From Halohasta litorea (lineage in GTDB: Archaea > Halobacteriota > Halobacteria > Halobacteriales > Haloferacaceae): 64,000 nt of DNA. The notes beneath the pieces are model-generated. The model made no database searches. It was given only the letters and a program-made list of their open reading frames with translations, and had not been told where the DNA came from. The position numbers and the translations under genes are program-made. This document shows, in pieces, positions 8,355 to 54,063 of the stretch (position 1 is its first letter; every line of letters starts with the position of its first letter). Where the stretch lies: assembly GCF_024494645.1 (NCBI RefSeq), contig NZ_JANHDJ010000001.1, positions 248,001 to 312,000 of the forward strand, written 5' to 3'.

Positions 8355-8526
8355 GAATTTCGGAAGTCGACAGGCGGGGATAAGTGTTGTTGGATGCGGT
8401 TGTGGATGGAAGGATGAACCTGATTCTATCATTTTGTGCTAGCTAACCCAATGTGAGTGATTATTGTCGCAACCAGTCTAGTGTAGGGTGTCTCAAAGTG
8501 GGCAAACTAGCCTATAATTGGCCAAA

Positions 8527-8536
8527 CTTTATATGG
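8527..8536 (+). promoter_or_regulatory. TATA box of the AT-rich winged-helix operon
   Basis: The sequence ctttatatgg is centred about 26 bases before the ATG at 8558. It points to a leaderless transcript covering the two overlapping genes that follow. Confidence 0.65.
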
Positions 8537-8557
8537 GTCAAGTAACAAACGGTATGT

Positions 8558-9025
8558 ATGAGACAAAAAGAGGTCATTGAGATCAGTGGAACCAATCCAA
8601 TCAAGAACGCCAGTCATCTGCTCAAGGGTTACGACAGTGAAAATGTCGAAGCCATTGAGATAAAAATACACAAAAAAAGCAATAGTCAAAAGGAAGATAA
8701 ACAAAAAAATGAGGTCAATATGGGAGATAAATCTGATAAAAAGAAAAATAGAGTAAAAGGGAGTATTCGGCCAAACACATCACACCATGCCGTATTACAA
8801 ACATTGCAATCAATTGGTGGACCTGACGAATACGTTCCCGGCAAGAAGGTTCTCAATACTGTTACCGGTGTGTCTGAAAGTAGTGTGTTTCCGGCACTCA
8901 CACAGCTTTGGGAACGCAAACTAGCTGAAAGAGAACGTGATGGAAACGGTTCGTATGCATACCGTGTCAGTGAATATGGGGAGAAAAAGTTGGAGGAACT
9001 TGGAGAGCCGAATATTAACGAATGA
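8558..9025 (+). CDS. Lysine-rich winged-helix DNA-binding protein of a small AT-rich insert
   Basis: The 155-residue product has two parts. Residues about 37-70 are extremely rich in lysine and polar residues (KKSNSQKEDKQKNE), rare in the acidic proteome of a haloarchaeon. Residues about 75-150 look like a winged-helix domain: HHAVLQTLQSIGG, a recognition-like segment in VSESSVFPALTQLWERKL, then a YAYRVSEYGEKKLEEL wing and helix similar to PadR/MarR-type regulators. Base composition and codon use are AT-rich compared with flanking genes, a sign of transfer. It overlaps the next gene by 4 bp (ATGA). A regulator role is inferred; the target and origin are unknown. Confidence 0.75.
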   Translation: MRQKEVIEISGTNPIKNASHLLKGYDSENVEAIEIKIHKKSNSQKEDKQKNEVNMGDKSDKKKNRVKGSIRPNTSHHAVLQTLQSIGGPDEYVPGKKVLNTVTGVSESSVFPALTQLWERKLAERERDGNGSYAYRVSEYGEKKLEELGEPNINE

Positions 9026-9339
9026 TCCTTAATATTCACAAAGGCGACAAGGTTAATCTGTTGCTTGCCTACCGCCACGGATACGATGATGTTGCCGGAA
9101 AAGTGGAATATTCTGGAGAGTCAGGGGTTATAATTGACGTGGAATCACCTGCATACCTCGGCAAACTCACACTGTCGTACGATACACATTGGTGTCCTGG
9201 CTCAATCATTGCGTACCGTGAACGCACATCTGTGCGTGAAGGATACGTCCCACTGCTCCGAATTATTCGAACTGAAGTTCGACAGGAGTCTAATTATAGA
9301 GCAGTAACTGACGGCAGTGGCAATAAAGAAGATAATTAG
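9022..9339 (+). CDS. Unrecognised 105-residue partner of the winged-helix protein
   Basis: I do not recognise this family. The protein is mostly alternating beta-strand-like segments (KVNLLLAYRHGYDDVAGKVEY, then a GVIIDVESPAYLGKLTLSY stretch, then GSIIAYRERT), suggesting a small beta-barrel or SH3/Sm-like fold, followed by a polar tail. It has no signal peptide or membrane segment. Its start overlaps the stop of the winged-helix gene by 4 bp, so the two are translationally coupled and probably act together. It shares the AT-rich composition of its partner. The 4-bp overlap and coherent codon use make it a real gene; no function can be given. Confidence 0.65.
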   Translation: MILNIHKGDKVNLLLAYRHGYDDVAGKVEYSGESGVIIDVESPAYLGKLTLSYDTHWCPGSIIAYRERTSVREGYVPLLRIIRTEVRQESNYRAVTDGSGNKEDN

Positions 9340-10226
9340 GCAGATATAGTATAACTCTCCCATTTATTTTAAATCGGAATTTTGGTCGTTGTGTGAATTT
9401 GTGATTGAACGCTTAGCTATGAATGCGCCTGTTGTCGCTTTTATCAACGAAATCACACCACAAACCAAAAACAAACTATGTGATAGTGCAATATGCGATG
9501 GACACAATATAGTCCCTATCGAACTCAATTCTAGTGACTGACAGTCGCGTACTTCTGGCCACAGCCGCGCCATCAGCAGACCGGTGTGTCGACGCCTGGA
9601 ACTCGCCTGCGTCGTCGCTTCGGCACCGAGCGCGCAATCGACTGGTTGTCGTCCGTCAACGGCGGTGATCCACGCAGCGTCGGTCCAACCGAAATCTCCC
9701 ACTGGGTAGTACTGTTTTGGAGAACCAGAAAGCCCCGACGCGCTCGACTCCCGCGACTCGTTGCGCTCCTCGGCCTCCGGCCTGCGGTGCTTACTTCGTC
9801 GGGGTTCGTCGAGCGCGTCGCCCCTTTCAGTCCCTCCCACCGCTGGCAGCTGGTCCACCGGCTTGCGGGGAGGATGAAAGGGGCGACTGGGTCCGGGAAG
9901 ACGGCCGACGCAAGCACTACAGGAGCGAACGGAGTGAGCGACGAAGCGCGCAGCGAGGCCCTCGACCGGAGCCAGTCGGGGCTTTCTGAGTGTTTAACGT
10001 TGCTGTCGACCCACTCCCACAGCTCACGAACCAATCCCTGACAACAAGCACAGAACCAGAGAAACACTCGTGAAAAGTGGGGTGGGGGTAGCTGACAGCG
10101 TCGGCGTGATGTCGTCCATCGACGGCGGCTGATGCACTGGCCCTGGGTGGAGGTTCCAAGTCTTCAGCGCAAATACCACCGACACAGTTCATACTCTCTC
10201 CGGGAGGTATGACCGACCGAGAGCAG
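9340..10226. other. Gene-poor stretch holding a palindromic element
   Basis: Nearly 890 bp lack a convincing gene. The first 220 bases are AT-rich and belong in composition to the preceding insert. From about 9550 composition becomes GC-rich, with open frames on both strands that have low-complexity, arginine-rich translations and are artefacts of the palindrome at 9726-9988. The flanks (9550-9725 and 9989-10200) may hold decayed gene fragments: one minus-strand frame near 10000-10065 reads LVRELWEWVDSNVKH, which has normal protein composition, but I cannot assign it. Confidence 0.5.
9726..9988. repeat. 263-bp nested palindromic element with perfect terminal inverted repeats
   Basis: The ends 9726-9739 (cagaaagccccgac) and 9975-9988 are perfect 14-bp inverted repeats. 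A second, inner pair, 9817-9829 (gtcgcccctttca) and 9875-9887, is also perfect over 13 bp, and the arms between them match imperfectly. No transposase is encoded inside. GC-rich palindromes with similar arms occur in other haloarchaeal genomes as far as I remember, so this is probably a non-autonomous or structural repeat family. No clear target-site duplication is visible at its borders. The segment 9925-9939 resembles 54845-54859 in the element behind tRNA-Ser at 13 of 15 positions. Confidence 0.75.
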
Positions 10227-29294: not shown

Positions 29295-30314
29295 ATGGAG
29301 ACGCGGAAAGTCCAAGTGACAGGTGGGTCGACCTACACCGTCTCGATTCCGAAATCGTGGGCCAACGACAACGGGGTGAGCGCGGGGAGCACCGTCGAGT
29401 TCTACCCGGAGGGTGATTCACTCTTTATGACACCTGCGGGTGCCGACGAGCGAACCGAGGGAACGCTGGATATCACGAACCTGATGGGGACCGAACTGAT
29501 TCGCGCGGTGACGACGATGTACGTCAGCGGCTTCGACATTATCCGGCTGGAAAGCGCCCGAATCTCCAACGACCAGCGGCGGACGATCCGGGAGGCCACC
29601 CAGAGTCTCGTCGGCCTCGAAGTCTTGGAGGAGACCAAAGGCGAGATCGTCATCCGGGACCTGTTGGACTCCTCGGAGCTATCGATCCACAACGCGGTCA
29701 CGCGGATGCGACTCATCGCGTCGTCGATGCTCGAAGACGCCCTGCTGGCGCTGCGGGATCTCGACCGGGATCTGGCCCACGACGTGATCCAGCGCGACGA
29801 CGACGTCGACCGGCTGTGGATGGTCGTCTCGCGGATCTTCCGGGCCACGCTCCGAACCCCCAAGGCGACCGAAGAGCTCGGGCTGCCGCGGGAGGTCTGT
29901 TTCGACTATCATTCCAGCGCCCGCCAACTGGAGCGGATCGGCGACCACGCGACCAAGATCGCCCACATCTCCCTGGACATCGAACAGGAGGTCCCCGAGG
30001 AGGCGCTGGACGCCATCGACGAGCTCCATTCGGAGGTCGTCACCGTCATCGACGGCGGGATGGACGCGCTGTTCACCGACGACAGCGAGGAGGCCACCCG
30101 GCTGGCCAACGACGTTCGGGAGCGCGTCCGTGACGTCGATGCGACCGCCCGCGGGATCGACGAACTGCTCCGTGAACTCGATCCGGCACGGGCCCAGCTG
30201 GTCGGCCGGATCGTCGATTCCGTCTCGCGGACCGCCGACTACGGCGGCAACATCGCCGAGACTGCCCTCCAGAAGGCCGCCCCCACCCCCGGCTCGTCGT
30301 CGACCCACGACTGA
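29295..30314 (+). CDS. AbrB-PhoU fusion phosphate regulator
   Basis: A 339-residue protein. Residues about 1-45 form an AbrB/SpoVT-type DNA-binding swapped hairpin (METRKVQVTGGSTYTVSIPK, then ANDNGVSAGSTV), and the rest is a two-repeat PhoU helical bundle with RQLERIGDHATKIAHIS and SVSRTADYGGNIAETA. This architecture is common in archaea and suggests a PhoU that reads cell phosphate and binds DNA directly, so it is the best candidate to bind the AT-rich motifs in this locus. It follows pstB in the same direction but has its own promoter region. Confidence 0.9.
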   Translation: METRKVQVTGGSTYTVSIPKSWANDNGVSAGSTVEFYPEGDSLFMTPAGADERTEGTLDITNLMGTELIRAVTTMYVSGFDIIRLESARISNDQRRTIREATQSLVGLEVLEETKGEIVIRDLLDSSELSIHNAVTRMRLIASSMLEDALLALRDLDRDLAHDVIQRDDDVDRLWMVVSRIFRATLRTPKATEELGLPREVCFDYHSSARQLERIGDHATKIAHISLDIEQEVPEEALDAIDELHSEVVTVIDGGMDALFTDDSEEATRLANDVRERVRDVDATARGIDELLRELDPARAQLVGRIVDSVSRTADYGGNIAETALQKAAPTPGSSSTHD

Positions 30315-30707
30315 GGCCGGTCGACGACAGACCCGCTATTACTTCGTGGTGTCGTCCGGCGGCGCTTTCGGCGGGAGATAGAAGGAGACCGTGTTCCCTG
30401 TCGCGTCGTTTGGCTGTCGTCTCGGTATACTCGTCGAGGGCTTCGATCTCCAACATTAGCCTTGTCTACCATCCGGAGCTCGATATTCGAGATGGGGATG
30501 ACGGTCCCGACACAAGAATACACCAACACGGTCAGGACGGGTGTACCTCAGAATGGTTCGTACTGGATCTGTGCGCCGTCTTCCGTGATAACTTCCTCGA
30601 TGCGTTTCGCAACTTGCTGGCTTCGTCATCGTCGCCATCGTAATCAACGCGGGATGACTAGTACCGAGCCTGATCGCGAAGCAGTGGCTTCACTATTTCT
30701 GATATTA
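30315..30707. other. Gene-free junction before the AT-rich island, possibly a decayed gene
   Basis: About 390 bp with no intact gene. On the minus strand, three consecutive short frames have normal protein composition: QQVAKRIEEVITEDGAQIQY, then VLVYSCVGTVIPISNIELRM, then MLEIEALDEYTETTAKRRDR. They occur in coding order but in changing frames, as a frameshifted remnant would. I cannot name the source. The base composition falls here from GC-rich to AT-rich, so it is the left border of the island. Confidence 0.4.
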
Positions 30708-31463
30708 TTAAACAAATAAAAGAACGCTTCCCAATACTGCTACCCCCGCGATAGTATATGACACCGTCTTTTTTGAAACGTTATGCGCAAATCTCCATCC
30801 GATAACCTGTGAGAAAATGTATGGGACTCCAATGGTGATAAACGGGTAAAAAGCAGGGGTATTACCCTGAAAAACATGGCCTAAGGCCGTACTTATACTA
30901 ATCAAGATACCGCTAGCCAACCCAGCCCCAATAGCTGTAATAGGAGCGATTCCAAAATAGATCAGCAGAGGAACGGTCAGTGCTGGTCCACCAATACCAG
31001 TGAGACCTGCAATTACTCCAATCAACGAGCTACTGAGCGTGATTTTTACTAAAATTTGAGCCGTTCTCCATTCCAGCGCATATTCTGAAGGGGATGATGA
31101 TGAGTGACGCTGTTGGTACACAATACCGATCGTAGTGAGTAATAGGATTCCAGCCAATATTGTTTCGAATACGTGAACCGGGAGCTTCGGAGTAACTTGC
31201 GCGCCAATACGTGTCCCAATAAGTGCTGGAACCCCGACAGAAGCAGCCAAAAGCCAGTCGATCCCGTCACTATAATAGTAAAGCCCAGTCGCAGTTATCG
31301 TTGCAATCACAAAGATACTACTTGCGGTCGCAGCAGCGACTGGCGGTGACAGAGCAATGCCAAGATTTAGCAGGAGTAGTACTGGTACGCCTCCCGGACC
31401 ACCAATTCCACCAATACTTCCACTTATCACTCCGATAGCAGCCATTAAAATAATTAATTCCAC
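30708..31463 (-). CDS. TauE/SafE-family membrane anion exporter
   Basis: A 251-residue membrane protein with about eight helices. The two homologous halves begin with glycine motifs GGIGGPGGVPVLLLL and GLTGIGGPALTVPLLIY, the mark of the TauE/SafE (DUF81) family, thought to move sulfite, sulfoacetate or other anions. The substrate here is unknown; the phosphate setting allows an anion of organophosphate breakdown. The DNA is AT-rich like the rest of the island. It follows the HAD phosphatase gene by 33 bp in the same direction and may be co-transcribed with it. Confidence 0.85.
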   Translation of the reverse strand: MELIILMAAIGVISGSIGGIGGPGGVPVLLLLNLGIALSPPVAAATASSIFVIATITATGLYYYSDGIDWLLAASVGVPALIGTRIGAQVTPKLPVHVFETILAGILLLTTIGIVYQQRHSSSSPSEYALEWRTAQILVKITLSSSLIGVIAGLTGIGGPALTVPLLIYFGIAPITAIGAGLASGILISISTALGHVFQGNTPAFYPFITIGVPYIFSQVIGWRFAHNVSKKTVSYTIAGVAVLGSVLLFV

Positions 31464-31496
31464 AAATTACACATCCATAGTCGCAATTTGTTCAGA

Positions 31497-32282
31497 TTAT
31501 AATGTTATGTTTTCTGCCAGCTCCGACAGATCTGACACGACATGGTCAACATCTACCTCACCCTGCCGAATATCTACATGACTAGTAACTCCAGTCATTG
31601 GTAATATTGTCGTCATCCCTGCCTGGTTACCCATCTTGATATCTGTCTCAAGACGATCTCCAATCATCAAACACTGTTCTGGATCGGTGTCCAATCGATT
31701 CAAAGCCATCTGAAGGATTACGTTTGAGGGCTTTCCGATCAATTGATCCAATTCACGGCCGGTTACCCCCTCAATTGCACCAATCATTCCTGCTGCATCA
31801 GGTATTTCTCCGTTATCAATAGGACAGGTCTGGTCTGGGTTTGTCGCAACGAATATTGTACCCTTCTCGCTTAGTACAGTCAATGCATCTTGGAGGACTT
31901 GATAGTCGAAGTCGAAATCAATTGATGCAATTAAAACATTAGCCCTTTGCGGTGAGGTTGTTGTTTGTACTCCCGCATAGTGTAGTTCCTCCACCAATGC
32001 TTTCTCCCCAACGACGTAGACTTCAGCTTCTGAATGATTCTGGGACAAATAATCTGCTGATGCAGTAGCGGAGGTTATAATTTCATCAGGATTACAACCC
32101 ACTCCCAAATCATTGAGCTTATCACAATACTTTTCACGCCTATCAATTGGCTTGTTTGTGACAAATAAAATTTGGATCCCAGCCTCACGAAGTGTTTTTA
32201 TCCCCTCCGCTGCGTTGGGAATTAGTGATTTTCCTCGATATACCGTCCCATCAAGATCGACTATTGCAGCATTATATGTCAT
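31497..32282 (-). CDS. HAD-IIA family phosphatase (NagD/glycerol-phosphatase type)
   Basis: The 261-residue protein has the HAD motifs: AAIVDLDGTVYRG (nucleophile and acid aspartates), LFVTNKPIDRREKY (motif II), and the C-terminal GDRLETDIKMGNQAGM. The C2a cap and the LIGKPSNVILQMAL segment (motif III lysine) place it with NagD, AraL and glycerol-1-phosphate phosphatases of subfamily IIA. It should release phosphate from a small sugar or glycerol phosphate in the cytoplasm. It is divergent from another HAD phosphatase gene and close to a Phn-type importer and a diesterase, which suits breakdown of imported phosphate esters. Confidence 0.88.
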   Translation of the reverse strand: MTYNAAIVDLDGTVYRGKSLIPNAAEGIKTLREAGIQILFVTNKPIDRREKYCDKLNDLGVGCNPDEIITSATASADYLSQNHSEAEVYVVGEKALVEELHYAGVQTTTSPQRANVLIASIDFDFDYQVLQDALTVLSEKGTIFVATNPDQTCPIDNGEIPDAAGMIGAIEGVTGRELDQLIGKPSNVILQMALNRLDTDPEQCLMIGDRLETDIKMGNQAGMTTILPMTGVTSHVDIRQGEVDVDHVVSDLSELAENITL

Positions 32283-32506
32283 GAATCCAACCCAATAACT
32301 AGGGGTCCTGATTTTATTTTGTGCCGATGCTTGCCGCGCTCAAATTGGTTTATTACCAACATACCCTGCAAGGTACGAGATATGTGTATTAATATTTTTG
32401 CTATTCATTCATAATACTATATAGCGAATTATATTGAATAAACAACCTATAGATTAAATATAACTTTGACACAAAAATTTATTAACACTGATTGCTATTT
32501 TGACTT
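32283..32506. promoter_or_regulatory. AT-rich divergent promoter region between two HAD genes
   Basis: About 220 bp, strongly AT-rich. A TATA-like aatttattaac lies at about 32477-32487, some 25 bases before the ATG at 32507. The minus-strand gene starts at 32282. No gene is visible between. Confidence 0.5.
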
Positions 32507-33178
32507 ATGTCGACTCCTGTGGCAATAGATATTGACGGCACTATGACCCAACCAGACGGTGGAATTGATCCTAAGTTGTTTGACATTCTCCATGACTGGC
32601 CAGAACCTGTTGTTATAGCTACTGGAAAAGCATTTCCGTACCCTGTAGCCCTCTGTGAATTTATTGGGATACCGACTCAAGTCGTCGCTGAAAATGGTGG
32701 CGTCGCCTGCACTGATGACTCCGTCGCTATTCTCGGTGACGGGAAAGCTGCTCGAAACGCCGTTTATTCGTTCGAATCTGCTGGTTACGACATCCAGCGT
32801 GGAGACAATGATCTTCACAACCGATGGCGGGAAACAGAAGTTTCTGTCGCAACTACTGTCGATGTCAGTGTACTGTCCGAGTTCGCGGAAGCACATGGAC
32901 AAACAGTTGTCGACACCGGTTATTCCTACCATGTCAAATCACCGAGCATCTCGAAAGCTGGTGGGCTCGCGTACGTAGCTGAGGAATTAGGGCTTGAAAC
33001 GACTGACTTCGTCGCAATCGGTGACTCGGAGAACGACTCTGAAATGTTTGATGTGTGTAAATACTCATTTTCTGTGGCTAATTGTGATGCATCTGCAGAA
33101 GCAGCTGCTGATGAGGTTACTGATAGTCCCTTCTCTGCAGGGACCATCGAAGCACTCGATATCCTCTGTTCGGATTGA
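32507..33178 (+). CDS. Phosphoglycolate phosphatase-like HAD hydrolase
   Basis: A 223-residue HAD-IIB-type protein: STPVAIDIDGTMTQPDGGID (motif I), VIATGKAFPYPVAL (motif II), a C2b cap with WRETEVSVATTVDVSVL, then SKAGGLAYVAEELGL (motif III lysine) and AIGDSENDSEMFDV (motif IV). This matches archaeal phosphoglycolate phosphatases, which also act on other small phosphate esters. The length is typical. AT-rich codons mark it as part of the island. It converges on the MgtC-like gene with 4 bp between stops. The precise substrate is unproven. Confidence 0.87.
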   Translation: MSTPVAIDIDGTMTQPDGGIDPKLFDILHDWPEPVVIATGKAFPYPVALCEFIGIPTQVVAENGGVACTDDSVAILGDGKAARNAVYSFESAGYDIQRGDNDLHNRWRETEVSVATTVDVSVLSEFAEAHGQTVVDTGYSYHVKSPSISKAGGLAYVAEELGLETTDFVAIGDSENDSEMFDVCKYSFSVANCDASAEAAADEVTDSPFSAGTIEALDILCSD

Positions 33179-33182
33179 TTTT

Positions 33183-34511
33183 TCATATCAATTGAACACT
33201 AATAACTACGCCAATAATTCCCATCACGGACAAGTACATTGATTTTCGTACTATCGGCCTCAGTAGTGATCGATTGATACTTGCTGCAAATCCGATTTTA
33301 ACGAGTATACTCGAAAGCGTGCCAACAAGAACACCTTGCGCTGCTACTGCTGGAGAGATTTGACCTGTTGAAGATAGTGAAACTGCTGTAGTAGTCGTGG
33401 TTCCACTTGATACAATACCACTAAGAAAACTGGTAAGCAGGAATCCAGTAGTTCCAAAGAACCGCTGTGCTCCCGCTGTTAGTACTAATACTCCGAGGAA
33501 GAGCAGCCCGAATTTGAATGCATTTGCACTACTAAACGGCGAATTGAAGTCGAGGTTCAGTTCACCTTCCCAATCATTATCGTAGAACGCAAGCCCAATA
33601 CCACTGATAGCGATCAAACCGAGAGGTAATCCAACACTGATAGCTGATTCTGGAACAAATACGACAATTATTGCTAGATTTCGGACAGCCATCGCTGCAT
33701 CAGCTATCAATATTGTCCCTACTGCGAGCCTTGTGATTCCTACATTGTTTTTCGCACGTCCTGCGATTTCACCGATTACAGCCGTGGAATTGACGAGGCC
33801 CCCAAAGAAACCGGTTACAGCTATGCCCATACTTCCGTACCGCTGCATCACAATATAATTGACAAATCCGATGCCGCTCACCGCGATCACGAGTGTCCAG
33901 ACTAGCCTGGGATTAATAGCATCCCAAGGGCCGTAAGTACCCACAGGAAGTAGTGGATAGACGACAAAGGCAATAATTGCAAATTCGCCTGCACTCCGCA
34001 CCTCTTCTCGTGAGAGCTGGTCCACGAACCCATGAAGCTCGCCTCGTAGTACAAGTAAGAATGAGGATGTAATTCCTATGATGACGCCAATAAGAACATG
34101 CTCTGCACCTACAAGTATGCCTACCGCGTACGCGACAAGTAGTGAGGTCGATGTCGTCAGAGATAAACTAAATTCTGAACTACTGATTGATTCCTTTGAT
34201 TGCGCTACCAAACCTTGGACACCCAGTAGACTTCCTTGAACTAAAACTAGTATTCCTCCCAATGCTAATAGCACAGTTTCGTCTAGAGACATTGCTGCTG
34301 CGCCAATTAAGCTAGTTAACGTGAATGTTCGGATGCCTGCAGACTTGTTAGACCATTCTCGTTCAAGACCAAGTAGCATCCCCAGCGATCCAGCAATGAA
34401 GAGATTGAGGATCTCTGTATCGAGTGCAAATGTTTCTATACCTACCATCATGGCCTGATTAGTAATATTGTCCACGGTGAAATTCAGGGCTGTTAATATG
34501 AGTTCCGGCAT
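33183..34511 (-). CDS. MgtC/DUF4010 membrane protein
   Basis: A 442-residue protein with about twelve helices. The N-terminal third has the MgtC/SapB-like motif IAGSLGMLLGLEREWSNKSA followed by GIRTFTLTSLIGAA. The remainder matches DUF4010: VVYPLLPVGTYGPWDAINPR, GFFGGLVNSTAVIGEIAGRA and GIVSSGTTTTTAVSLSSTGQ. Family function is unknown; MgtC relatives are linked to magnesium and to phosphate/ATP homeostasis. Its place beside phosphate genes is in keeping with that. It is divergent from phnD, sharing a 286-bp AT-rich control region. Confidence 0.85.
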   Translation of the reverse strand: MPELILTALNFTVDNITNQAMMVGIETFALDTEILNLFIAGSLGMLLGLEREWSNKSAGIRTFTLTSLIGAAAMSLDETVLLALGGILVLVQGSLLGVQGLVAQSKESISSSEFSLSLTTSTSLLVAYAVGILVGAEHVLIGVIIGITSSFLLVLRGELHGFVDQLSREEVRSAGEFAIIAFVVYPLLPVGTYGPWDAINPRLVWTLVIAVSGIGFVNYIVMQRYGSMGIAVTGFFGGLVNSTAVIGEIAGRAKNNVGITRLAVGTILIADAAMAVRNLAIIVVFVPESAISVGLPLGLIAISGIGLAFYDNDWEGELNLDFNSPFSSANAFKFGLLFLGVLVLTAGAQRFFGTTGFLLTSFLSGIVSSGTTTTTAVSLSSTGQISPAVAAQGVLVGTLSSILVKIGFAASINRSLLRPIVRKSMYLSVMGIIGVVISVQLI

Positions 34512-34797
34512 ATTTATATAGACTATGTATCTCTATTGTGTCTATGGAGGCAAACATAGTGATAGGTAATAGGTGTTACCCTTGACGCACGGGTAATCAC
34601 CAAAAAATATAAATAATCAGACACTACACCACACTCTTAGTCATAAGTGACAGAACTAAGTCATACATTTTTGTCTGATGTATAATAGCTAAAGTACGCT
34701 AAGAGGGCGAATAAACCCATTTTTAGCACCTTTTTATATATCATATATATAATAAAAAGACTTTTTTACCTATCTTTTATGATTGATAGTGTTGACA
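34512..34797. promoter_or_regulatory. AT-rich control region upstream of phnD with repeats
   Basis: This 286-bp stretch has three ordered signals: an inverted pair actatgt/acatagt (34522-34528, 34554-34560); a hairpin-like pair ggtgttaccc/gggtaatcacc (34572-34581, 34591-34601); and direct repeats cttagtcata and ctaagtcata (34636-34645, 34656-34665) exactly 20 bp apart. Long AT runs near 34735-34765 can supply TATA boxes. The repeats look like operators for phnDCEE and/or the divergent MgtC-like gene. Confidence 0.5.
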
Positions 34798-35928
34798 ATG
34801 AGTAATCAACCACTTGACCGACGTTCGGTTTTGAAAACTAGTGCAGCTGCCCTCGCAGTGGGCGCCGCAGGATGTACTGAACAAAATAATAATGAGGAAG
34901 ACGAATCCAGTAGCGGTGGAAACAGTAGTAGTTCCAGTAATAATTACGCTGAGTTTGATCCTGCTAACCCTGAATTCCCCCAGCTGATGAATACACTCAT
35001 TGATGCTGGATTCCAGACTGGCTCACTCGAGGATCTCGAGAATATGGAAAATCGGGACGAACCTCGCTACGGCGAACCAGTACAGGAGACTCCCGATGAT
35101 GAAAGTGAACTCATCGATCCTGACCGGATCGCATTTGCGATGACTCCCACTGAGGACCCCGCAGTCTATCGGGACACGATGCAGCCCCTCATGGATAATA
35201 TCTCAGAGGAAACCGGGAAGGATGTTGAATACTTCCCACTTAATTCATACGCTTCTCAGGTTGAAGCTATGCGGTCTGAGCGACTCCATGTCGCTGGCTT
35301 TTCGACCGGTCCGACGCCGTTTGCTGTGAATTTAGCTGGTGCTGTACCGTTCTCTCTGCAGGTCTCACAAGAAGGTGACTTCGGTTACCGTCTCTGGCTT
35401 GCAACTCAGGCAGACAATGATAGCATCAATTCCTTAGAAGACATTTCTGGTAAGCGCATTGCACATGCTGAACCATCGTCGAACTCTGGTAACTTAGCTC
35501 CGCGCGCCTTGTTCTCCAATCAGGGTGTCACACCTGGTGAGGATTATGAGGTGTCATACTCTGGTGGTCACGAACAGGGTATTCTTGGGGTAGCCAACGG
35601 TGACTATGATGCTGCGCCTGTTTGTAGCACGTGTGTTACTCGTGTTGCCGAGGCTGACAACATTGATCCAACCAATCTGAAGGTTGTCTGGGCAAGTAAC
35701 CCATTCCCGACGACGAGTTTCTGTTACCGGTACAACTTGACGCCGGAAATTCAAGACGGTATTAGATCTGCGTTCATTGATTATGACTACTCTGATACTA
35801 GAATTGCAGAGGTGTTCGGTGGTCGTGGGACGTGGACCGAGATCGATTACGCGACCGTGTACGATGTTATCCTACAGATTCAGGAGAACAACGACATTAG
35901 TTACCAAATCGATAACGTTGGAGAATAA
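34798..35928 (+). CDS. phnD: PhnD-type phosphonate/phosphate-ester binding lipoprotein
   Basis: The 376-residue protein starts with a Tat signal (LDRRSVLKTSAAALAVGAAGC, lipobox GC) and a Ser/Asn-rich linker. The mature domain is PhnD-like: RIAFAMTPTEDPAVYRDTMQ, then YFPLNSYASQVEAMRSERLH, SGKRIAHAEPSSNSGNLAPR and GVANGDYDAAPVCSTCV. PhnD proteins bind phosphonates, phosphite or methyl phosphate. No C-P lyase gene is present in the window, so an ester is at least as likely as a phosphonate. It leads a phnD-phnC-phnE-phnE operon. An earlier non-ATG start is possible; ATG at 34798 gives the right signal peptide. Confidence 0.88.
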   Translation: MSNQPLDRRSVLKTSAAALAVGAAGCTEQNNNEEDESSSGGNSSSSSNNYAEFDPANPEFPQLMNTLIDAGFQTGSLEDLENMENRDEPRYGEPVQETPDDESELIDPDRIAFAMTPTEDPAVYRDTMQPLMDNISEETGKDVEYFPLNSYASQVEAMRSERLHVAGFSTGPTPFAVNLAGAVPFSLQVSQEGDFGYRLWLATQADNDSINSLEDISGKRIAHAEPSSNSGNLAPRALFSNQGVTPGEDYEVSYSGGHEQGILGVANGDYDAAPVCSTCVTRVAEADNIDPTNLKVVWASNPFPTTSFCYRYNLTPEIQDGIRSAFIDYDYSDTRIAEVFGGRGTWTEIDYATVYDVILQIQENNDISYQIDNVGE

Positions 35929-35958
35929 CTTTAAAACACATTAAATTTAATATATATT

Positions 35959-36774
35959 ATGCTCGAAGTAACTGAATTAGAAAAGACGTATGATACTGGT
36001 GATAGAGCGCTTAAATCAGTCTCATTTGAAGTCAGTGGGAACGAAATCGTCGCAATTATTGGGCCAAGCGGCGCTGGTAAGAGCACCCTTATCCGGAGTA
36101 TCAACCGGTTAACAGAGCCAACTGGTGGTTCAATTACTTTGGATGGGAAAGAATTAACGGATCTTGGACAGTCAGAACTCCGGAATGCCCGGCGCGATAT
36201 GGGGATGATATTCCAGGAGTTCAATCTTGTCGAGCGCCTAACTGTAATGGAGAATATTCTCTCCGGACGACTCGGCTATCTGAGTACTTGGGACGCGTTC
36301 CGCCGGAACTTTCCACCAGAAGATATCAGTCGCGCACGCGAAATCCTCAGTCGCGTGAACTTAGATGGTGTCGAAAATAACCGAGCCGATGAACTCTCTG
36401 GTGGGCAACGACAACGGGTTGGGATCGCTCGTGCAGTTATCCAACGTCCAAAGATCCTACTAGCTGACGAGCCAACTAGTGCATTGGACCCAGAAACGTC
36501 TAGAGAGGTCATGAACCTCTTGACGGATATCGCGCATGAGGATGATATTCCAGTTATCATTAATATCCATGAGGTCGACCTAGCTATTGAACATGCTGAC
36601 CGAATAATCGGTCTTAGCAACGGTGAAGTCGTATTCAATGGCTCTGCTGACAAACTTGATGAAGAGGCAAGAGACGAGATCTATCGTGGGGGAGAATCAC
36701 TTGAGCAAAAACAGATGGCAAGTTCCGAAGCGGAGACTAATATAAGTGATGCAGTTGTCGAACGGGGTGACTAA
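35959..36774 (+). CDS. phnC: PhnC-type ABC transporter ATP-binding protein
   Basis: A 271-residue ATPase with Walker [11 protein letters not shown]-loop [16 protein letters not shown], signature LSGGQRQR, Walker [14 protein letters not shown] and H-loop [15 protein letters not shown]. The [20 protein letters not shown] segment is the hallmark of PhnC. It powers uptake through the two PhnE permeases. The protein is less acidic than usual for haloarchaea and the DNA AT-rich. It starts 30 bp after phnD and ends 5 bp before the first phnE. Confidence 0.92.
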
Positions 36775-36779
36775 ACTCT

Positions 36780-37595
36780 ATGGCAGCTGAGCCTGGCTCA
36801 ACAGCCAACGGGTCGTGGGAGCGACCAACTGCATTCTATAGCAAGAATGTCAAGTATGGAATTTACGCGCTGATATTGCTGTTCTTCGCCTACAGCTTCT
36901 GGAACCTTCGAATGTCGCCTGCCCGGTTTATTCAAGGGTTAGGAGCTGGCGTTGAACTCATCTCAAGTATGCTACCCCCCGCATACACGCCGACACAACG
37001 TGAACTCCTCATTCAGGGTATAATTGAGAGTATCGTCATGGCGATTGTTGCCACTGTGATTGGGATCATCATCAGCATCCCTGTCGCAGTTATGGCTTCG
37101 GACAACTTGGTGCCTGGTCCGATCTACTATATTGGCCGTAGTATCGTCGCAACAACTCGGTCTCTTCACGAGCTAATTGTTGCAATTGTTATGGTCAAGG
37201 CAGTCGGATTTGGACCGCTTGCTGGCGTACTTGCCCTTGCATTCAAAACGATAGGGTTCTTCGCGAAACTCCTTGCTGAAGAGATTGAAGATATTGATCA
37301 CGGACAAATGGAGGCAGTCACAGCTGTTGGTGGGAATTCAATTCAGAGATATCTCTACGGTGTCCTCCCACAGGTAATGCCTCGAATCGTTGGACTCAGC
37401 ATTTACCGCCTTGATATCAATCTCCGTCACAGTACTGTCGTTGGTATTGTTGGCGCAGGCGGTATCGGGATTACACTGTTGAATTCCTTCGATAAATATG
37501 ATTACCAATTCAGTATGGCCATTATCTCTGTTATTGTGGTAATTGTAATGATTGGTGAAGGAATCAGTGCGGTTGCTCGACGGAGGATTCAGTGA
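36780..37595 (+). CDS. phnE: PhnE-type ABC transporter permease, first copy
   Basis: A 271-residue permease with about six helices; TM segments near 22-38, 82-103 and 115-135, then the PhnE loop GQMEAVTAVGGNSIQRYLYG, which docks on the ATPase, and RLDINLRHSTVVGIVGAGGI, conserved in PhnE. Shares its reading region with the next gene through a TGATG overlap. PhnE transporters normally use one or two permease proteins; here the second copy indicates a heterodimer. Confidence 0.9.
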   Translation: MAAEPGSTANGSWERPTAFYSKNVKYGIYALILLFFAYSFWNLRMSPARFIQGLGAGVELISSMLPPAYTPTQRELLIQGIIESIVMAIVATVIGIIISIPVAVMASDNLVPGPIYYIGRSIVATTRSLHELIVAIVMVKAVGFGPLAGVLALAFKTIGFFAKLLAEEIEDIDHGQMEAVTAVGGNSIQRYLYGVLPQVMPRIVGLSIYRLDINLRHSTVVGIVGAGGIGITLLNSFDKYDYQFSMAIISVIVVIVMIGEGISAVARRRIQ

Positions 37596-38389
37596 TGTCT
37601 AGCAACCCTGAATCATGGGAACGCTTTGATCGCCGAGAGCGGCTCATCCGCTTCTTCATGTTGTTCGCTGGACTTGTGATTATTGTTGCAGCATGGCGTG
37701 CGATGGAAGTCAATTATGGCTATGCCATCACTGCTCCAGTTGAGCTAGCAGATCTGTTCAGCCGGATGTATCCCCCTGACGTGGGATATTCAACGACAAT
37801 CACAGGTGCTCTACTTGAGACGCTCAACATCTCAATTCTTGGTACAGCACTGGCTATCTTGATGGCTATCCCTGTCGCTTTTTTGGGTGCTAGTAACACC
37901 ACTCCAAATAAAGCGACATATCTATTCGGGAAATTTATTATTTCCTTTACTAGATCTGTCAATGTCATCATTTGGGCCCTAATTTTCGTTGTGGTGTTTG
38001 GGCCAGGAGCTCTTGCAGGTGTCTTAGCAATCGCTGTTCGGTCGATTGGGTTCACAGCTAAGCTAATCGCTGAAGCGATCGAAGAAATTGACAAAGGCTC
38101 AGTTGAAGCTGTAACCGCCGTTGGGGCATCTCAACTAGACGTGCTTATATACGGTATCGTTCCTCAGATTAAGCCGGCATTCATCAGTGTTACGACACTC
38201 CGTTGGGACATAAATGTCCGTGCATCCACAATTATCGGATTCGTTGGTGCAGGTGGTATTGGTGTCCCGTTACAGACTGAAATCAATTATTTCAATTGGG
38301 AAGCTGTCCTAACAATCCTTATTGCGATTCTTGGTCTTGTTCTTGTGAGTGAAGCCGTATCGGCGTATCTCCGGAAGAAAGTGATGTAA
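37595..38389 (+). CDS. phnE: PhnE-type ABC transporter permease, second copy
   Basis: A 264-residue permease, similar in plan to its upstream neighbour: ATPase-contact loop GSVEAVTAVGASQLDVLIYG and RWDINVRASTIIGFVGAGGI near the C-terminus. The start ATG at 37595 shares its first base with the stop of the first phnE; an in-frame GTG at 37592 is an alternative. The two copies match at conserved positions but are clearly distinct, so the duplication is old. Together they form the channel of the Phn-type importer. Confidence 0.9.
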   Translation: MSSNPESWERFDRRERLIRFFMLFAGLVIIVAAWRAMEVNYGYAITAPVELADLFSRMYPPDVGYSTTITGALLETLNISILGTALAILMAIPVAFLGASNTTPNKATYLFGKFIISFTRSVNVIIWALIFVVVFGPGALAGVLAIAVRSIGFTAKLIAEAIEEIDKGSVEAVTAVGASQLDVLIYGIVPQIKPAFISVTTLRWDINVRASTIIGFVGAGGIGVPLQTEINYFNWEAVLTILIAILGLVLVSEAVSAYLRKKVM

Positions 38390-38431
38390 ATACACTTTCC
38401 TAATTTCGTTTTATTACTCTGTGTGTCATAT

Positions 38432-39286
38432 ATGAATATAGATTTAATTGCGCATCGCGGGTTTGCTGGTGTCTATCCTGAAAATACTATCAAAGCGGTA
38501 TCTGCAGCTTCAGGTCACCGGTCATCCGATCTGCCCGAGTCGAATATCCCTGACCTAATTGAGATCGACGTGATGCCAACAATGGAAAATGACATTATTG
38601 TTCACCATGATGAATCCTTATCTGACCACACCAACACCAATCACCACTCTGGCATAAATTGTGAATATATTTGGGAATTGCCTACAAAAAAAGTTATTGA
38701 GTGTGAAATTGGCCAAAGTGGTGAAACAATTCCACTTCTAACTGAATTGCTCGCAGCGATCCCTAATCATATTGGCGTTAATATTGAGATAAAAAATCCG
38801 GGATCATCGAATGTATTTTTTGATAAGTTACTTTCTGGTCAACAAATCTCGGTTCAAAAAGATATTTGGGGTGATTTTGTTGTAGATCTTCTAAACATTA
38901 TCGGACAATATAATAATGATTTCCTTATTTCATCATTCTACGAAGCTCCGTTAGCGCTCGTTGATGAACTGTCAGACTATCCAGTTGCACCACTACTTTG
39001 GAATTCGATTGACCGCGGGCTCAAAATTTCAAAAAGATATGGTGCTAAAGCAGTTCACGCACCGTATAATATGGTTGAACAAACGTCGTTCTTTGGAGAT
39101 CCATATTATACAGAGGGGCCTTGGGAAGATACCAAATTGATTGAAACTGCTCACGATCAGGGTCACAATGTAAATGTATTCACTGTCACTACCTCATCTG
39201 AGATTGAAGAACTCGTTGCTGCTGGTATCGATGGTATCATCGCCGATTATCCAGACCTGCTCTCGGCCGCGGAATTAGACTCATAA
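38432..39286 (+). CDS. Glycerophosphodiester phosphodiesterase family protein
   Basis: A 284-residue GDPD enzyme: NIDLIAHRGFAGVYPENT carries the catalytic His and Arg-Gly, EIDVMPTMENDIIVHHDESL the metal-binding Glu and Asp and catalytic His, and GVNIEIKNPG the third acidic ligand. The C-terminal VFTVTTSSEIEELVAAGIDG and ADYP motifs are typical. There is no signal peptide, so it cleaves diesters such as glycerophospho-alcohols in the cytoplasm, giving glycerol phosphate. It follows the Phn-type importer by 42 bp, with its own TATA-like ttttatta about 25 bases before the ATG. A GTG three codons earlier is possible. It makes an importer-hydrolase pair likely. Confidence 0.88.
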   Translation: MNIDLIAHRGFAGVYPENTIKAVSAASGHRSSDLPESNIPDLIEIDVMPTMENDIIVHHDESLSDHTNTNHHSGINCEYIWELPTKKVIECEIGQSGETIPLLTELLAAIPNHIGVNIEIKNPGSSNVFFDKLLSGQQISVQKDIWGDFVVDLLNIIGQYNNDFLISSFYEAPLALVDELSDYPVAPLLWNSIDRGLKISKRYGAKAVHAPYNMVEQTSFFGDPYYTEGPWEDTKLIETAHDQGHNVNVFTVTTSSEIEELVAAGIDGIIADYPDLLSAAELDS

Positions 39287-39438
39287 CCCCGAACAGACAA
39301 CTATGACCGTTTGGAATCCTGTGTTATGGACCTCATACCTGTAATGGGATACGACTTTGCTCAATCATCTAAACATTGACTCACAGTGTCGACGGTAGGG
39401 ACTTCAATATCGTTGCGCTTCCATTGGAAGGGGCGTGT

Positions 39439-39967
39439 TTAATCGCCCGAAGGGATCGGAATCTCTTGGTCTGCGGCCTTCTTGATGTTATAGACTGCAC
39501 ACATCACCGCAAGCTCACGAAATTCTCGGTACCAGATACGCGCTCGCAGGGCAACGCCCAGCGCGCTTGACCGACGAGAAGACACTTTCTGACATAGAGC
39601 GTTGGTGGTAGAGATCATCGTTAATCCGGTCGTTGTGGGCGTGATCGTAGGGCTTGTTGATGCAGTGCTTGATCAGTGGATGGATGCCGAGATCTTCTCG
39701 AAGGTATTCGTGCAACCACGTGCAGTCGTAGCCCTTGTCGGCGGTGAGAGCCTGCAACTCGCCCGCAAGCACGCGGGCGAGTTGCTTGTAGATGTCAGCG
39801 TCACTCCCTTCTTTGGTGGTTGTGCAGTGTAAATCAAGGATAACGTTCGTGTCTGTATCAACGACTTTCGTTGCCTTGAGATCTTGTACGTCGTATTTTG
39901 TCTTGGTACTGTACGAGCGGCTCGCAGGCGAGCGCTCGAAGTACGTCGCATCAATCGCTCCAATTCT
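39439..39967 (-). pseudogene. Decayed IS5-type (ISH-group) transposase, 5' part missing and frameshifted
   Basis: On the minus strand, residues such as RIGAIDATYFERSPASRSYS, LQALTADKGYDCTWLHEYLR and GIHPLIKHCINKPYDHAHND match the DDE domain of haloarchaeal IS5-type transposases. The 5' part is absent, ending at the fused PAS gene near 39967. Near 39550-39570 the frame shifts: SSVKRA then reads on in another frame as ARIWYREFRELAVMCAVYN and ends EIPIPSGD at the TAA of 39439-39441. A loss of two bases would explain this. The element cannot move itself. No terminal repeat could be identified to fix its exact ends. Confidence 0.85.
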
Positions 39968-40227
39968 TGGGGGGTTCCTTCGGCGGCCGCCGTGATCCGA
40001 CGCTGGGCGGCCCGCTGGGTGTACGAATAGGTGTTGGCACTGATCGCCTCGACGGTCAGCTCCCGCAACTCCGCGGCGGTGTAGCCGTACAGCGCTTCGA
40101 GCCGCCGGTTGGCGTCCAGCATCGCCCCGGTTTCGGGGTCGTGGACCACGATCCCGATCTGGAGGTCCTGGAGTTCGTCGGGCAGTGAAACGCCGCCTCG
40201 TGGGGGAAGCTGCCTGCCATCGGACAT
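39968..40227 (-). pseudogene. PAS-domain gene truncated at the IS junction
   Basis: From ATG at 40227 an 86-codon stretch reads MSDGRQLPPRGGVSLPDELQ, then DLQIGIVVHDPETGAMLDAN and YGYTAAELRELTVEAISANT, a normal GC-rich haloarchaeal PAS domain. It stops matching at GTPQ (about 39972), where the IS5 remnant begins, and no PAS 3' half is found elsewhere in the window. A TATA-like ttatatatag lies about 45 bases upstream on its coding strand. It was probably a sensor or bacterio-opsin-activator-type regulator gene, broken when the island or IS arrived. Confidence 0.85.
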
Positions 40228-51736: not shown

Positions 51737-52879
51737 TCAGTCGGCCTCGGCGGCACACCGGTTCGGGCCGAGTTCGAGTTCGATCGCCTCGACCTCGTTT
51801 TCGACCGATTCTTGGCCCCTGTTGATCCCGATCACCCGCTCGTAGTTCGGCGGCTTTTCCGGGAGCCGCTCGGTGAGTGCGTCGACGAACGTCTCACGGT
51901 CGGCCGACAGTATCTCCAGGCCGGTCCGGAGCAAGCCGACAGTGGTATCGACCGGCTCGCCGGGCGTGATCGCCGTCGTCCCGTCGTTGTTGACCGTGAA
52001 GTGGCCCGGCAGCACCGTGACGGAGTCGGGTTCGGCCAACAGCGTTCGGTGCAGCGAGTCGTAAAGCAGCTCGGCCCCGGTCGTGGCATCGCCGTCGCCG
52101 AACTGGAGTTCCGTCCGGCCAAGCGAGTCGACGAAGACCGTATCACCCGTTAACACGGCCTCGTGGCCGACGAGGTAGCTCACCATCTCGGAGGTGTGGC
52201 CCGGCGTTTCGAGGGCCTTGATGTCGAGTCCGCCGACAGAGACGACCTCGTTGGCCCCGAGCGGGTCGTACTCGTAGTCGACGTCCCGATCGGTCGCCGT
52301 CTCTCCGAGGTAGTAGGGTACGTTTCGGTCGGCTGCGAGGTCGCGGCCGCCGGAGATGTGGTCGGCGTGGACGTGGGTATCGAAGACGGCGACGATCTCG
52401 CTGTCGAGGGCTTCGGCAGCGGCCTCGAACTCCCCGGTGTGGCGGGTGGCATCGACGACTGCGGCCTCGCCGTCACTTTCGATGACATAGCCCAGACAGC
52501 CCTTGGCGCGGCGCTGGAGTTGGACGACGCTGAACGCGTCGTACTCGATCCGGACGTGATCGTAAACCGCACTCCAGGCCCGCATTCCGCCTTCGACGAC
52601 CGCGACGTGTTCGTAGCCCGCCTCGGCCAACTCCGCGGCGAGGTCGTCGGAGGCCTGGCCTTTCGCGCACATCGTCACGATTGGGTCCTCTGGGCCGAGC
52701 CCGGTTTCGGCCTCGAAGTCGGCACGGTCGAACTCGTGGAACGGTTTGTAGAAATACTGGATCGAATCGGCTATCCGCCACCTCTCGAAGCTCTCCGGCG
52801 GTCGAGTATCGACGACGACCGTCGGCTCGCCTGAATCCAGCCGGTCGCGGAACTCCTCGGCGGTGAGTGACTGGTGCAT
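51737..52879 (-). CDS. Rhodanese-metallo-beta-lactamase fusion
   Basis: A 380-residue fusion. Residues 1-110 are a rhodanese domain with active-site C71 in VTMCAKGQASDDL. Residues about 125-380 are an MBL-fold hydrolase with FDTHVHADHISGGRDLAADR (metal ligands) and ETPGHTSEMVSYL, DTVFVDSLGRTELQF and LPGHFTVN. It is similar to persulfide dioxygenase (ETHE1)-type enzymes, but the common fused order is MBL first, rhodanese second; here it is reversed. It probably handles persulfides or glutathione-free thiols in the cytoplasm. ATG at 52879 gives the normal rhodanese start; the longer frame is not conserved-looking. Confidence 0.85.
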   Translation of the reverse strand: MHQSLTAEEFRDRLDSGEPTVVVDTRPPESFERWRIADSIQYFYKPFHEFDRADFEAETGLGPEDPIVTMCAKGQASDDLAAELAEAGYEHVAVVEGGMRAWSAVYDHVRIEYDAFSVVQLQRRAKGCLGYVIESDGEAAVVDATRHTGEFEAAAEALDSEIVAVFDTHVHADHISGGRDLAADRNVPYYLGETATDRDVDYEYDPLGANEVVSVGGLDIKALETPGHTSEMVSYLVGHEAVLTGDTVFVDSLGRTELQFGDGDATTGAELLYDSLHRTLLAEPDSVTVLPGHFTVNNDGTTAITPGEPVDTTVGLLRTGLEILSADRETFVDALTERLPEKPPNYERVIGINRGQESVENEVEAIELELGPNRCAAEAD

Positions 52880-53039
52880 ACTGTTTCCCTCGCGTGGTGG
52901 CCGCAAAAGTCTCACGTCGACGTCCGGCTCGCCGTCGAATATTGAACGAAATTTGAACGGACCTCTGACGGACTCAGCACGGATTTTGTATTATTATTGA
53001 AATATTCATTTACCGTACCGCCCTGAACTGGCCGACTGT

Positions 53040-53315
53040 ATGTCGTACAATCGGACACGACGATCGGTTATTGGAGCAACAGGTGCACTCGTAACTGCCG
53101 CCCTTGCTGGCTGTACGGGCGATCCAGCCGAAGAAGAGTCGGGCGACGAATCCATGGACGATGAATCTATGGATGATGAATCTATGGAAAACGGATCCAT
53201 GGAAACTGAATCTATGGATGGCGGAGCTATGGGAAACGAATCTATGAACGATGAATCAATGGAAGACGACTCCATGGAGGATGAATCCATGGGGAATGGA
53301 TCAATGGAAAACTAA
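53040..53315 (+). CDS. Acidic Met-rich pentapeptide-repeat lipoprotein
   Basis: A 91-residue secreted lipoprotein. A Tat-type signal with lipobox (TRRSVIGATGALVTAALAGC) is followed by 11 pentads beginning Ser/Ala-Met, such as SMDDE, SMENG and SMEDD, from residue 38 to the end. The repeats have 15-bp periodicity in DNA. It resembles the idea of bacterial MxKDx pentapeptide lipoproteins, though with acidic residues in place of Lys. Met and carboxylates could bind metals such as copper; this is a guess. It is expressed alone, with an AT-rich upstream region. Confidence 0.75.
   Translation: MSYNRTRRSVIGATGALVTAALAGCTGDPAEEESGDESMDDESMDDESMENGSMETESMDGGAMGNESMNDESMEDDSMEDESMGNGSMEN
53151..53312 (+). 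repeat. Tandem 15-bp coding repeat (11 units)
   Basis: Eleven near-identical units encode (Ser/Ala)-Met-x-x-x pentads at the end of the lipoprotein gene. The unit consensus is of the type tctatggatgatgaa, with variation in the third to fifth codons. It is all in frame, so copy-number changes keep the reading frame open. Confidence 0.85.
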
Positions 53316-53487: not shown

Positions 53488-53760
53488 ATGGAGAAGGCAC
53501 TCTGGTATCTGCTCGTCGGGACGCGTGGCGGCGAGAACCGCGCGCGTATCATCCGCACGATCGACGAGCGACCACGGAACGCCAACCAGATCGCCGAGTG
53601 CCTGGAGGTCGACTACAACACGGTGCGACACCACCTCGATATGTTACAAGACCACGACGTGATCGAAGCCGGTGGCGACGACTACGGCAAACTCTACTTC
53701 CTGACCGACCGCTTCGAACACCACCGCGAGGAGTTCGAACGGGTCCTGGAGGCGATGTGA
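53488..53760 (+). CDS. Winged-helix transcription regulator (ArsR-like)
   Basis: A 90-residue one-domain regulator: ENRARIIRTIDERPRNANQI, then AECLEVDYNTVRHHLDMLQD as the recognition helix, and a wing in GGDDYGKLYFLTDRFEHH. No cysteine metal site is present, so it is not a classical metal sensor. It abuts the next gene with no gap and probably controls the pair, or partners with the membrane protein in sensing. Confidence 0.85.
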   Translation: MEKALWYLLVGTRGGENRARIIRTIDERPRNANQIAECLEVDYNTVRHHLDMLQDHDVIEAGGDDYGKLYFLTDRFEHHREEFERVLEAM

Positions 53761-54063
53761 ATGCTGGGGATCATGGAGCCGTGGATGGCGGTCGCAACCC
53801 TGTTTTCGGGCGTTAACGTCGTCCTACTGGGCGCACTGACGACCGTCTGGGTGCGCAACTACCGGACGTTCGGCTCGGAGCTGACCGCCGGACTGGCCGC
53901 CTTCGCGGCGGTCCTGCTGATCGAGAACGCCGTGGCGATCTACTTCTTTTTCAGCAGTGGGATGCTGTATGCGGGCGCGCCGACTGCCCAGCAGGCCGTC
54001 GCCGCGCTCCGTATCCTCCAGACGATCGCATTGGCGTTCCTCACCTACGTCACGGTGAAGTGA
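53761..54063 (+). CDS. Three-helix membrane protein paired with a winged-helix regulator
   Basis: The 100-residue protein has helices near 10-30 (AVATLFSGVNVVLLGALTTV), 40-62 (LTAGLAAFAAVLLIENAVAI) and 78-98 (VAALRILQTIALAFLTYVTV). It begins immediately after the stop of the winged-helix gene. Pairs of a small HTH protein and a small membrane protein of this type recur in haloarchaea, to my knowledge without known function. Confidence 0.75.
   Translation: MLGIMEPWMAVATLFSGVNVVLLGALTTVWVRNYRTFGSELTAGLAAFAAVLLIENAVAIYFFFSSGMLYAGAPTAQQAVAALRILQTIALAFLTYVTVK

Follow-up and report, generated by a model that had tools for sequence, protein, structure and literature searches.

A methionine-pentad lipoprotein of Halohasta litorea as a putative sacrificial methionine sink, and the recurrence of methionine-rich genes beside a sulfite-oxidase-family molybdoenzyme in haloarchaea

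The gene considered here lies in a 64,000-nucleotide stretch of the haloarchaeon Halohasta litorea (the window; positions 248,001 to 312,000 of contig NZ_JANHDJ010000001.1) and encodes a 91-residue lipoprotein that consists mainly of methionine pentads. With modest confidence, we propose that this protein is tethered and serves as a sacrificial sink of methionine, with a molybdoenzyme that would reduce its sulfoxides again, because the pairing of methionine-rich (Met-rich) genes with a sulfite-oxidase-family molybdoenzyme in archaea shares the logic of bacterial pairs of Met-rich proteins and sulfoxide reductases. A membrane-tethered, probably unfolded acidic chain would expose many methionines outside the cell as sacrificial targets for hypochlorite or other reactive chlorine or bromine species, and possibly for peroxide; the methionine sulfoxide would then be reduced back by an extracellular enzyme of the sulfite oxidase family, allowing the sponge to be reused. 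A winged-helix regulator and a small membrane protein presumably control both the sink and the enzyme, and in the genus of the window the sink gene still lies by the regulator pair, with a related enzyme encoded elsewhere in the genome. We infer the oxidation, the re-reduction, their regulation and the electron source. More tentatively still, haloarchaea may own a surface methionine redox buffer, in which a new enzyme branch serves as extracellular sulfoxide reductase for dedicated Met-rich substrates, gained or rebuilt on many occasions with differing anchors (lipid, archaeosortase-type PGF-CTERM, membrane helix), in convergence with bacterial MrpX-MsrP. The interest is more in this archaeal enzyme pairing than in the window gene alone.

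The gene and the parts of its product are located as follows.
53040..53315, + strand: Met-pentad lipoprotein gene, 91 amino acids (list of open reading frames and orthologues)
53040..53111, + strand: twin-arginine (Tat)-like signal peptide (TRRSVIG) with the lipobox LAGC at its end (sequence, by eye)
53112-53114, + strand: codon of Cys25, the predicted lipidated residue (by eye)
53148..53312, + strand: 11 pentads (E/G/D)(S/A)M(D/E/G/N)x with a 15-bp period (repeat analysis)

The N-terminus, MSYNRTRRSVIGATGALVTAALAGC, presents a twin-arginine run and the lipobox LAGC by eye, and the NCBIfam model TAT_signal_seq scores 13.4 bits on the protein, under its cut-off of 16.7. Signal and lipobox are followed by a short acidic stretch and then by the 11 pentads, which continue up to the last residues; for this chain we infer export, lipidation and lack of structure, as we do the outside location of the enzyme. 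The methionines after M1 stand at residues 39, 44, 49, 54, 59, 64, 69, 74, 79, 84 and 89, in a single unbroken 5-residue register, and are preceded by serine in 10 pentads and by alanine in one. This pattern is more than chance: when the 67-residue mature composition was shuffled 200,000 times, the longest run of methionines at 5-residue spacing was 7, as compared with the observed 11. Tandem Repeats Finder reports a period of 15 for the array (53145-53292; 9.9 copies, 71% matches) and also one of 45. An earlier sequence-only reading had described a secreted lipoprotein of 11 methionine pentads in a 15-bp periodic repeat, and the reading frame, lipobox, methionine register and period all bear this out. 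As the DNA units have a mean identity of only 72% and their silent sites vary, the array is not a recent DNA duplication. All 11 units conserve the ATG, whereas the Ser/Ala codon before it occurs with three different third bases, and for this reason the repeat looks kept by selection at the protein level. A candidate antisense gene (53006-53290, opposite strand) was rejected, as its open reading frame merely mirrors the repeat and there is no evidence of a gene.

In the window, the lipoprotein gene precedes a small helix-turn-helix (HTH) regulator gene and a gene for a small transmembrane (TM) protein; elsewhere in haloarchaea, the HTH and TM pair follows a sulfite-oxidase-family molybdoenzyme gene (PF00174 and PF03404). 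Four loci (L064, L065, L066 and L068, from genomes G170, G108, G262 and G269) carry a Met-rich lipoprotein, the molybdoenzyme, HTH and TM genes on one strand, with the lipoprotein and enzyme genes 11-196 bp apart. In L025 and L030 (Halonotius, G025), these two genes are oriented divergently from HTH-TM, and in L148, L169, L173 and L178 the enzyme gene points away from that of the regulator, with a Met-rich gene still directly upstream of the enzyme.

As the HTH family has a match in 216 of the 293 genomes of the order (E<=1e-20), loci were picked by this regulator to avoid choosing by methionine. The 88 best of the HTH matches listed (80 newly fetched and 8 already in the set) together with L025 from Halonotius gave 89 loci, all with HTH and TM genes and 74 with the enzyme as well. 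Under a strict rule (a 40-residue segment with >=5 methionines, >=30 residues of DEGNSTQAM and >=4 D/E), a Met-rich segment was found upstream of the enzyme, that is within 1.5 kb of its gene and on its strand, in 42 of these 74 loci, and in 35/67 of the cassettes chosen by HTH only. Five such segments occurred elsewhere in 2,071 strand-kb, the upstream stretches constituting 5% of strand length; the segments by the HTH gene in the enzyme-less loci (the window, L029 and L140) were counted neither as upstream nor as elsewhere. A relaxed rule gave 46/74 upstream and 17 elsewhere. Of the HTH loci in the independent set that are without the enzyme, some of them cut by contig ends, 1 of 13 had a Met-rich segment (Fisher p 0.005, such p-values overstating the significance since the rows are related). 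For PF00174 loci outside the cassettes, the single hit among 23 was false, lying inside another protein with no repeat. The cassettes scored negative under the strict rule include some with weaker Met linkers (L133, L135, L172, L185). This adjacency in many haloarchaea, reminiscent of bacterial hypochlorite scavengers, lends indirect support to the oxidant uptake that had been suggested from the window gene alone.

In the enzyme tree, which leaves out nine loci repeating other rows, the Met-rich label changes 17 times, and the Met-rich gene was not a single inheritance, because at least 14 of these changes are forced by well-supported branches. Several of the Met-negative cassettes have a gene for a small membrane protein upstream of the enzyme (L111:3529-4197, L113, L121); the L111 protein has a VTT domain and the others are alike by eye. 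A search for a shared motif upstream of the HTH gene gave no clear result, the enriched words seemingly stemming from the enzyme gene, the end of which extends into many of the 90-bp stretches upstream of HTH.

The 46 Met-rich genes found upstream of the enzyme with the relaxed rule were divided into anchor classes by simple sequence rules. Seventeen proteins have no lipobox but PGF near the C-terminus and a C-terminal membrane helix, 11 have a domain behind the repeat (with a lipobox recognised in 10), 10 have a membrane helix alone, six consist of lipobox and repeat only, and two are mixed. Pfam confirmed PGF-CTERM in L159, the sole such protein with a match; the protein of L152 was scanned as well and matched no Pfam family, and DUF7482 was identified in L033 and L135. 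The recurring element is a predicted tethered Met-rich acidic chain, with variable anchor and context.

For the molybdoenzyme, the L025 representative scores 127.8 bits with PF00174 and 41.3 bits with PF03404, the Mo-co (molybdenum cofactor) dimerisation domain. MsrP is not known to have a Mo-co dimerisation domain, unlike the cassette enzyme, and the MsrP model NF003767 (cut-off 207 bits) gives only 54.3 bits for L025 and 48.1 for the related enzyme on contig C32 of the window genome. A near-molybdenum loop C-S-G-N-x-R, the arginine of which holds sulfite, is typical of SorA/SorT sulfite dehydrogenases. Where it could be read, in 68/74 cassette enzymes, the loop at the molybdenum cysteine is instead LRCV(G/S)(E/D)xLN(G/D), that is CVGExLNG and near variants; the regular expression returned nothing or a false place in L121, L125, L154, L163, L175 and L186. 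The sulfite-dehydrogenase-like paralogues L076 and L087 (G296) have CSGNGR and CAGNDR, and E. coli MsrP has RCVEAW. We take the cassette enzymes to be a branch of their own in which the active site is altered, and the recurrent Met-rich neighbour provides them with a candidate substrate.

For orthologues of the window protein, the order signal, lipobox and chain of repeat only was required. Sixteen of 60 relatives match the window protein at E<=1e-4, mostly via the signal and linker alone, and true orthologues were identified in the genus-mate G003 (116 amino acids, 70% identity), the family member G025 (108 amino acids) and Halonotius roseus (128 amino acids). All three retain the signal, lipobox and Met repeats with differing copy numbers, which answers the call of the sequence-only reading for orthologues and their repeat numbers. 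G003 was the only one of three genus-mates searched with an orthologue; G001 showed a weak match inside a longer frame, and G002, a less complete assembly, had no match to the window protein. By the same count the G003 array has 15 Met units, and because these are 91% identical it is a young array that is expanding or homogenising. At E<=1e-6, a profile of the four proteins had matches in 110 of the order's 293 genomes, chiefly in linkers of longer lipoproteins, and 8 of 30 loci read encode repeat-only lipoproteins (L034-L038, L042, L045, L047; L035 is the window's own). The view that so uniform a tethered protein is rare does not hold for haloarchaea, where other Met-rich tethered proteins were found. 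One match, in G031 (L012), was dropped owing to internal stops and a different composition. A lipoprotein of MDDGS/MDDES units is also encoded at L026:3989-4216, on a contig labelled as a Spirochaeta metagenome-assembled genome; this is a possible bacterial parallel, with no match to the cassette enzyme or MsrP within 8.2 kb.

A number of observations weigh against the proposed sink and its enzyme. The molybdoenzyme gene is absent beside the lipoprotein gene both in the window and in G003 (L029), and the intergenic gap holds no enzyme trace in either; the idea that part of the enzyme gene survives there, ahead of the regulator, was rejected for this genus, as translations of the gap do not outscore shuffled sequences (31, shuffled mean 32; 33, shuffled mean 35). 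Two genes of the window genome match PF00174, encoding 245 and 505 amino acids, the longer one on contig C32. This C32 gene and its G003 counterpart are placed next to L148, L169, L173 and L178 in the enzyme tree, but the C32 gene has no Met-rich neighbour in 18 kb. No Met-rich gene was found in 32/74 cassettes under the strict rule and in 28/74 under the relaxed one. Small or repeat-only Met-rich lipoproteins without the cassette occur in 18-20 kb stretches of G296, G164, G233 and G154, and acidic linkers rich in methionine are likewise present at the front of other lipoproteins in haloarchaea. The nearest solved structures of the enzyme are sulfite dehydrogenases (5wa0, E 3e-27), with MsrP far weaker (1xdq, E 5e-9); the SorA and SorT models give 115.8 bits each (cut-offs 600 and 570 bits), and the enzyme falls under every curated NCBIfam cut-off (SorA, SorT, SoxC and MsrP).

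Acidic linkers, some of them Met-rich, precede domains in many haloarchaeal lipoproteins, and of the 46 Met-rich genes found upstream of the enzyme 11 encode a domain behind the repeat. This would agree with a flexible acidic spacer or a remnant of a larger lipoprotein, in which methionine is chemically idle and 15-bp slippage maintains the pattern, and the young G003 array fits such slippage. However, the older window array still has every ATG, Met-rich segments concentrate upstream of one enzyme family (42 loci compared with five segments elsewhere), and there is nothing to space where a protein ends with its repeat, so that this explanation appears unlikely. The affinity of the enzyme for SorT, SorA and SoxC, together with its dimerisation domain, would favour a dehydrogenase of sulfite or another sulfur compound that the Met-rich protein aids in some other way, for instance as a docking surface or in electron transfer. 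We regard this as very unlikely, as the near-molybdenum loop is without the C-S/A-G-N-x-R motif that the paralogues L076 and L087 keep, and a chain without cofactor ligands leaves the conservation of methionine unexplained.

As a further alternative, methionine and carboxylates could bind soft or borderline metals such as copper and silver outside the cell, and the protein would then act as a chaperone or sponge for metal; several bacterial proteins bind Cu(I)/Ag(I) through stretches rich in methionine. Two haloarchaeal lipoproteins (L059, L061) have Met/His-acidic linkers (DDEHMDDEHM) ahead of a domain that is blue-copper-like by eye, and metal binding would be the better guess for that setting. 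The window repeat, in contrast, has no histidine, the sole cysteine of the mature chain is the lipidated one, and among the neighbours read the recurrent one is the sulfite-oxidase-family molybdoenzyme and no copper gene was noticed; for the window protein a metal role therefore seems quite unlikely, and the sacrificial sink is preferred.

The surroundings of the lipoprotein gene include the following features.
52940..53039, + strand: leader/promoter region, largely conserved with G003 (comparison with the genus-mate)
52942-52958, upstream of the lipoprotein gene: direct repeat TTGAAC-N5-TTGAAC with an 11-bp step, conserved in G003 (putative operator)
53488..53760, + strand: small winged-helix regulator (HTH_20, ArsR-like), 90 amino acids (Pfam PF12840, 37.0 bits, cut-off 27)
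53761..54063, + strand: small hydrophobic membrane protein, about 3 TM segments by eye, 100 amino acids, adjoining the regulator with no gap

The direct repeat is a possible operator, and the membrane protein at 53761..54063 is matched by neither Pfam nor NCBIfam. A rhodanese plus metallo-beta-lactamase protein (persulfide dioxygenase-like) is encoded at 51737-52915 on the - strand, divergently from the lipoprotein gene; its gene is retained in G003, and a scan of the other 87 loci did not reveal it. Farther away, window positions 30001-40000 have a GC content of 0.45-0.51 over about 10 kb, as compared with 0.60-0.69 in most of the window, and are possibly an integrated element; a lesser dip (0.51) is located at 8001-10000.

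The literature searched, which covered neither bioRxiv nor most subscription papers, contained no description of Met-rich proteins beside molybdoenzymes in haloarchaea. Term searches of a paper on hypochlorite in Haloferax volcanii (PMC6267482) and of one on OxsR (PMC9426492) returned no passage on such a system. According to excerpts of a 2018 review, sulfite-oxidase-family molybdoenzymes are widespread in archaea and were not known to act in methionine sulfoxide reduction there (PMC6211008).

Among known families, TIGR02953 (MXKDX) resembles the window protein in having a signal followed by Met pentapeptides, and matches it weakly (E 8e-6, residues 36-89). However, the score of 25.7 bits is below the cut-off of 41, only one of the four orthologues is matched, and K-D is absent from the unit; the likeness to bacterial MxKDx proteins noted from sequence thus stands for function and not for family membership. 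The Met-acidic linkers of larger lipoproteins (DUF7482; L033, L135) have a similar repeat and are often upstream of the cassette molybdoenzyme, but their repeat joins a lipid anchor to a domain, whereas the window protein is the repeat alone. The closest functional parallel may be MrpX/YedY1, a bacterial Met-rich protein and sulfite-oxidase-family molybdoenzyme that are reported to scavenge hypochlorite (PMC5748585). As there, a Met-rich protein, predicted to be exported, is encoded beside such an enzyme in the orthologous loci L025 and L030 and in the related L064, L065, L066 and L068, though not in the window and L029, and a cycle of oxidation and re-reduction is proposed. The MrpX system is in the bacterial periplasm and has an MXKDX-type sequence, an MsrP-type enzyme and a haem membrane partner, whereas the archaeal proteins are acidic and tethered, with another enzyme branch carrying a dimerisation domain and with a different regulator and small membrane protein. 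In Brucella melitensis, BcrX and BcrQP are reported to be induced by hypochlorous acid (HOCl) and to contribute to HOCl resistance (PMC8315932); these differ in belonging to a bacterium, in their control by an extracytoplasmic function (ECF) sigma factor and in being MsrP/MsrQ homologues. If the proposal is correct, cells in near-saturated chloride brine would bear a reusable methionine shield on their exterior, and Bacteria and Archaea would both have come to pair a Met-rich sink with a molybdoenzyme, on different enzyme branches. The archaeal system is, by this comparison, a putative analogue of MrpX/YedY1 and BcrX/BcrQP and not a member of either.
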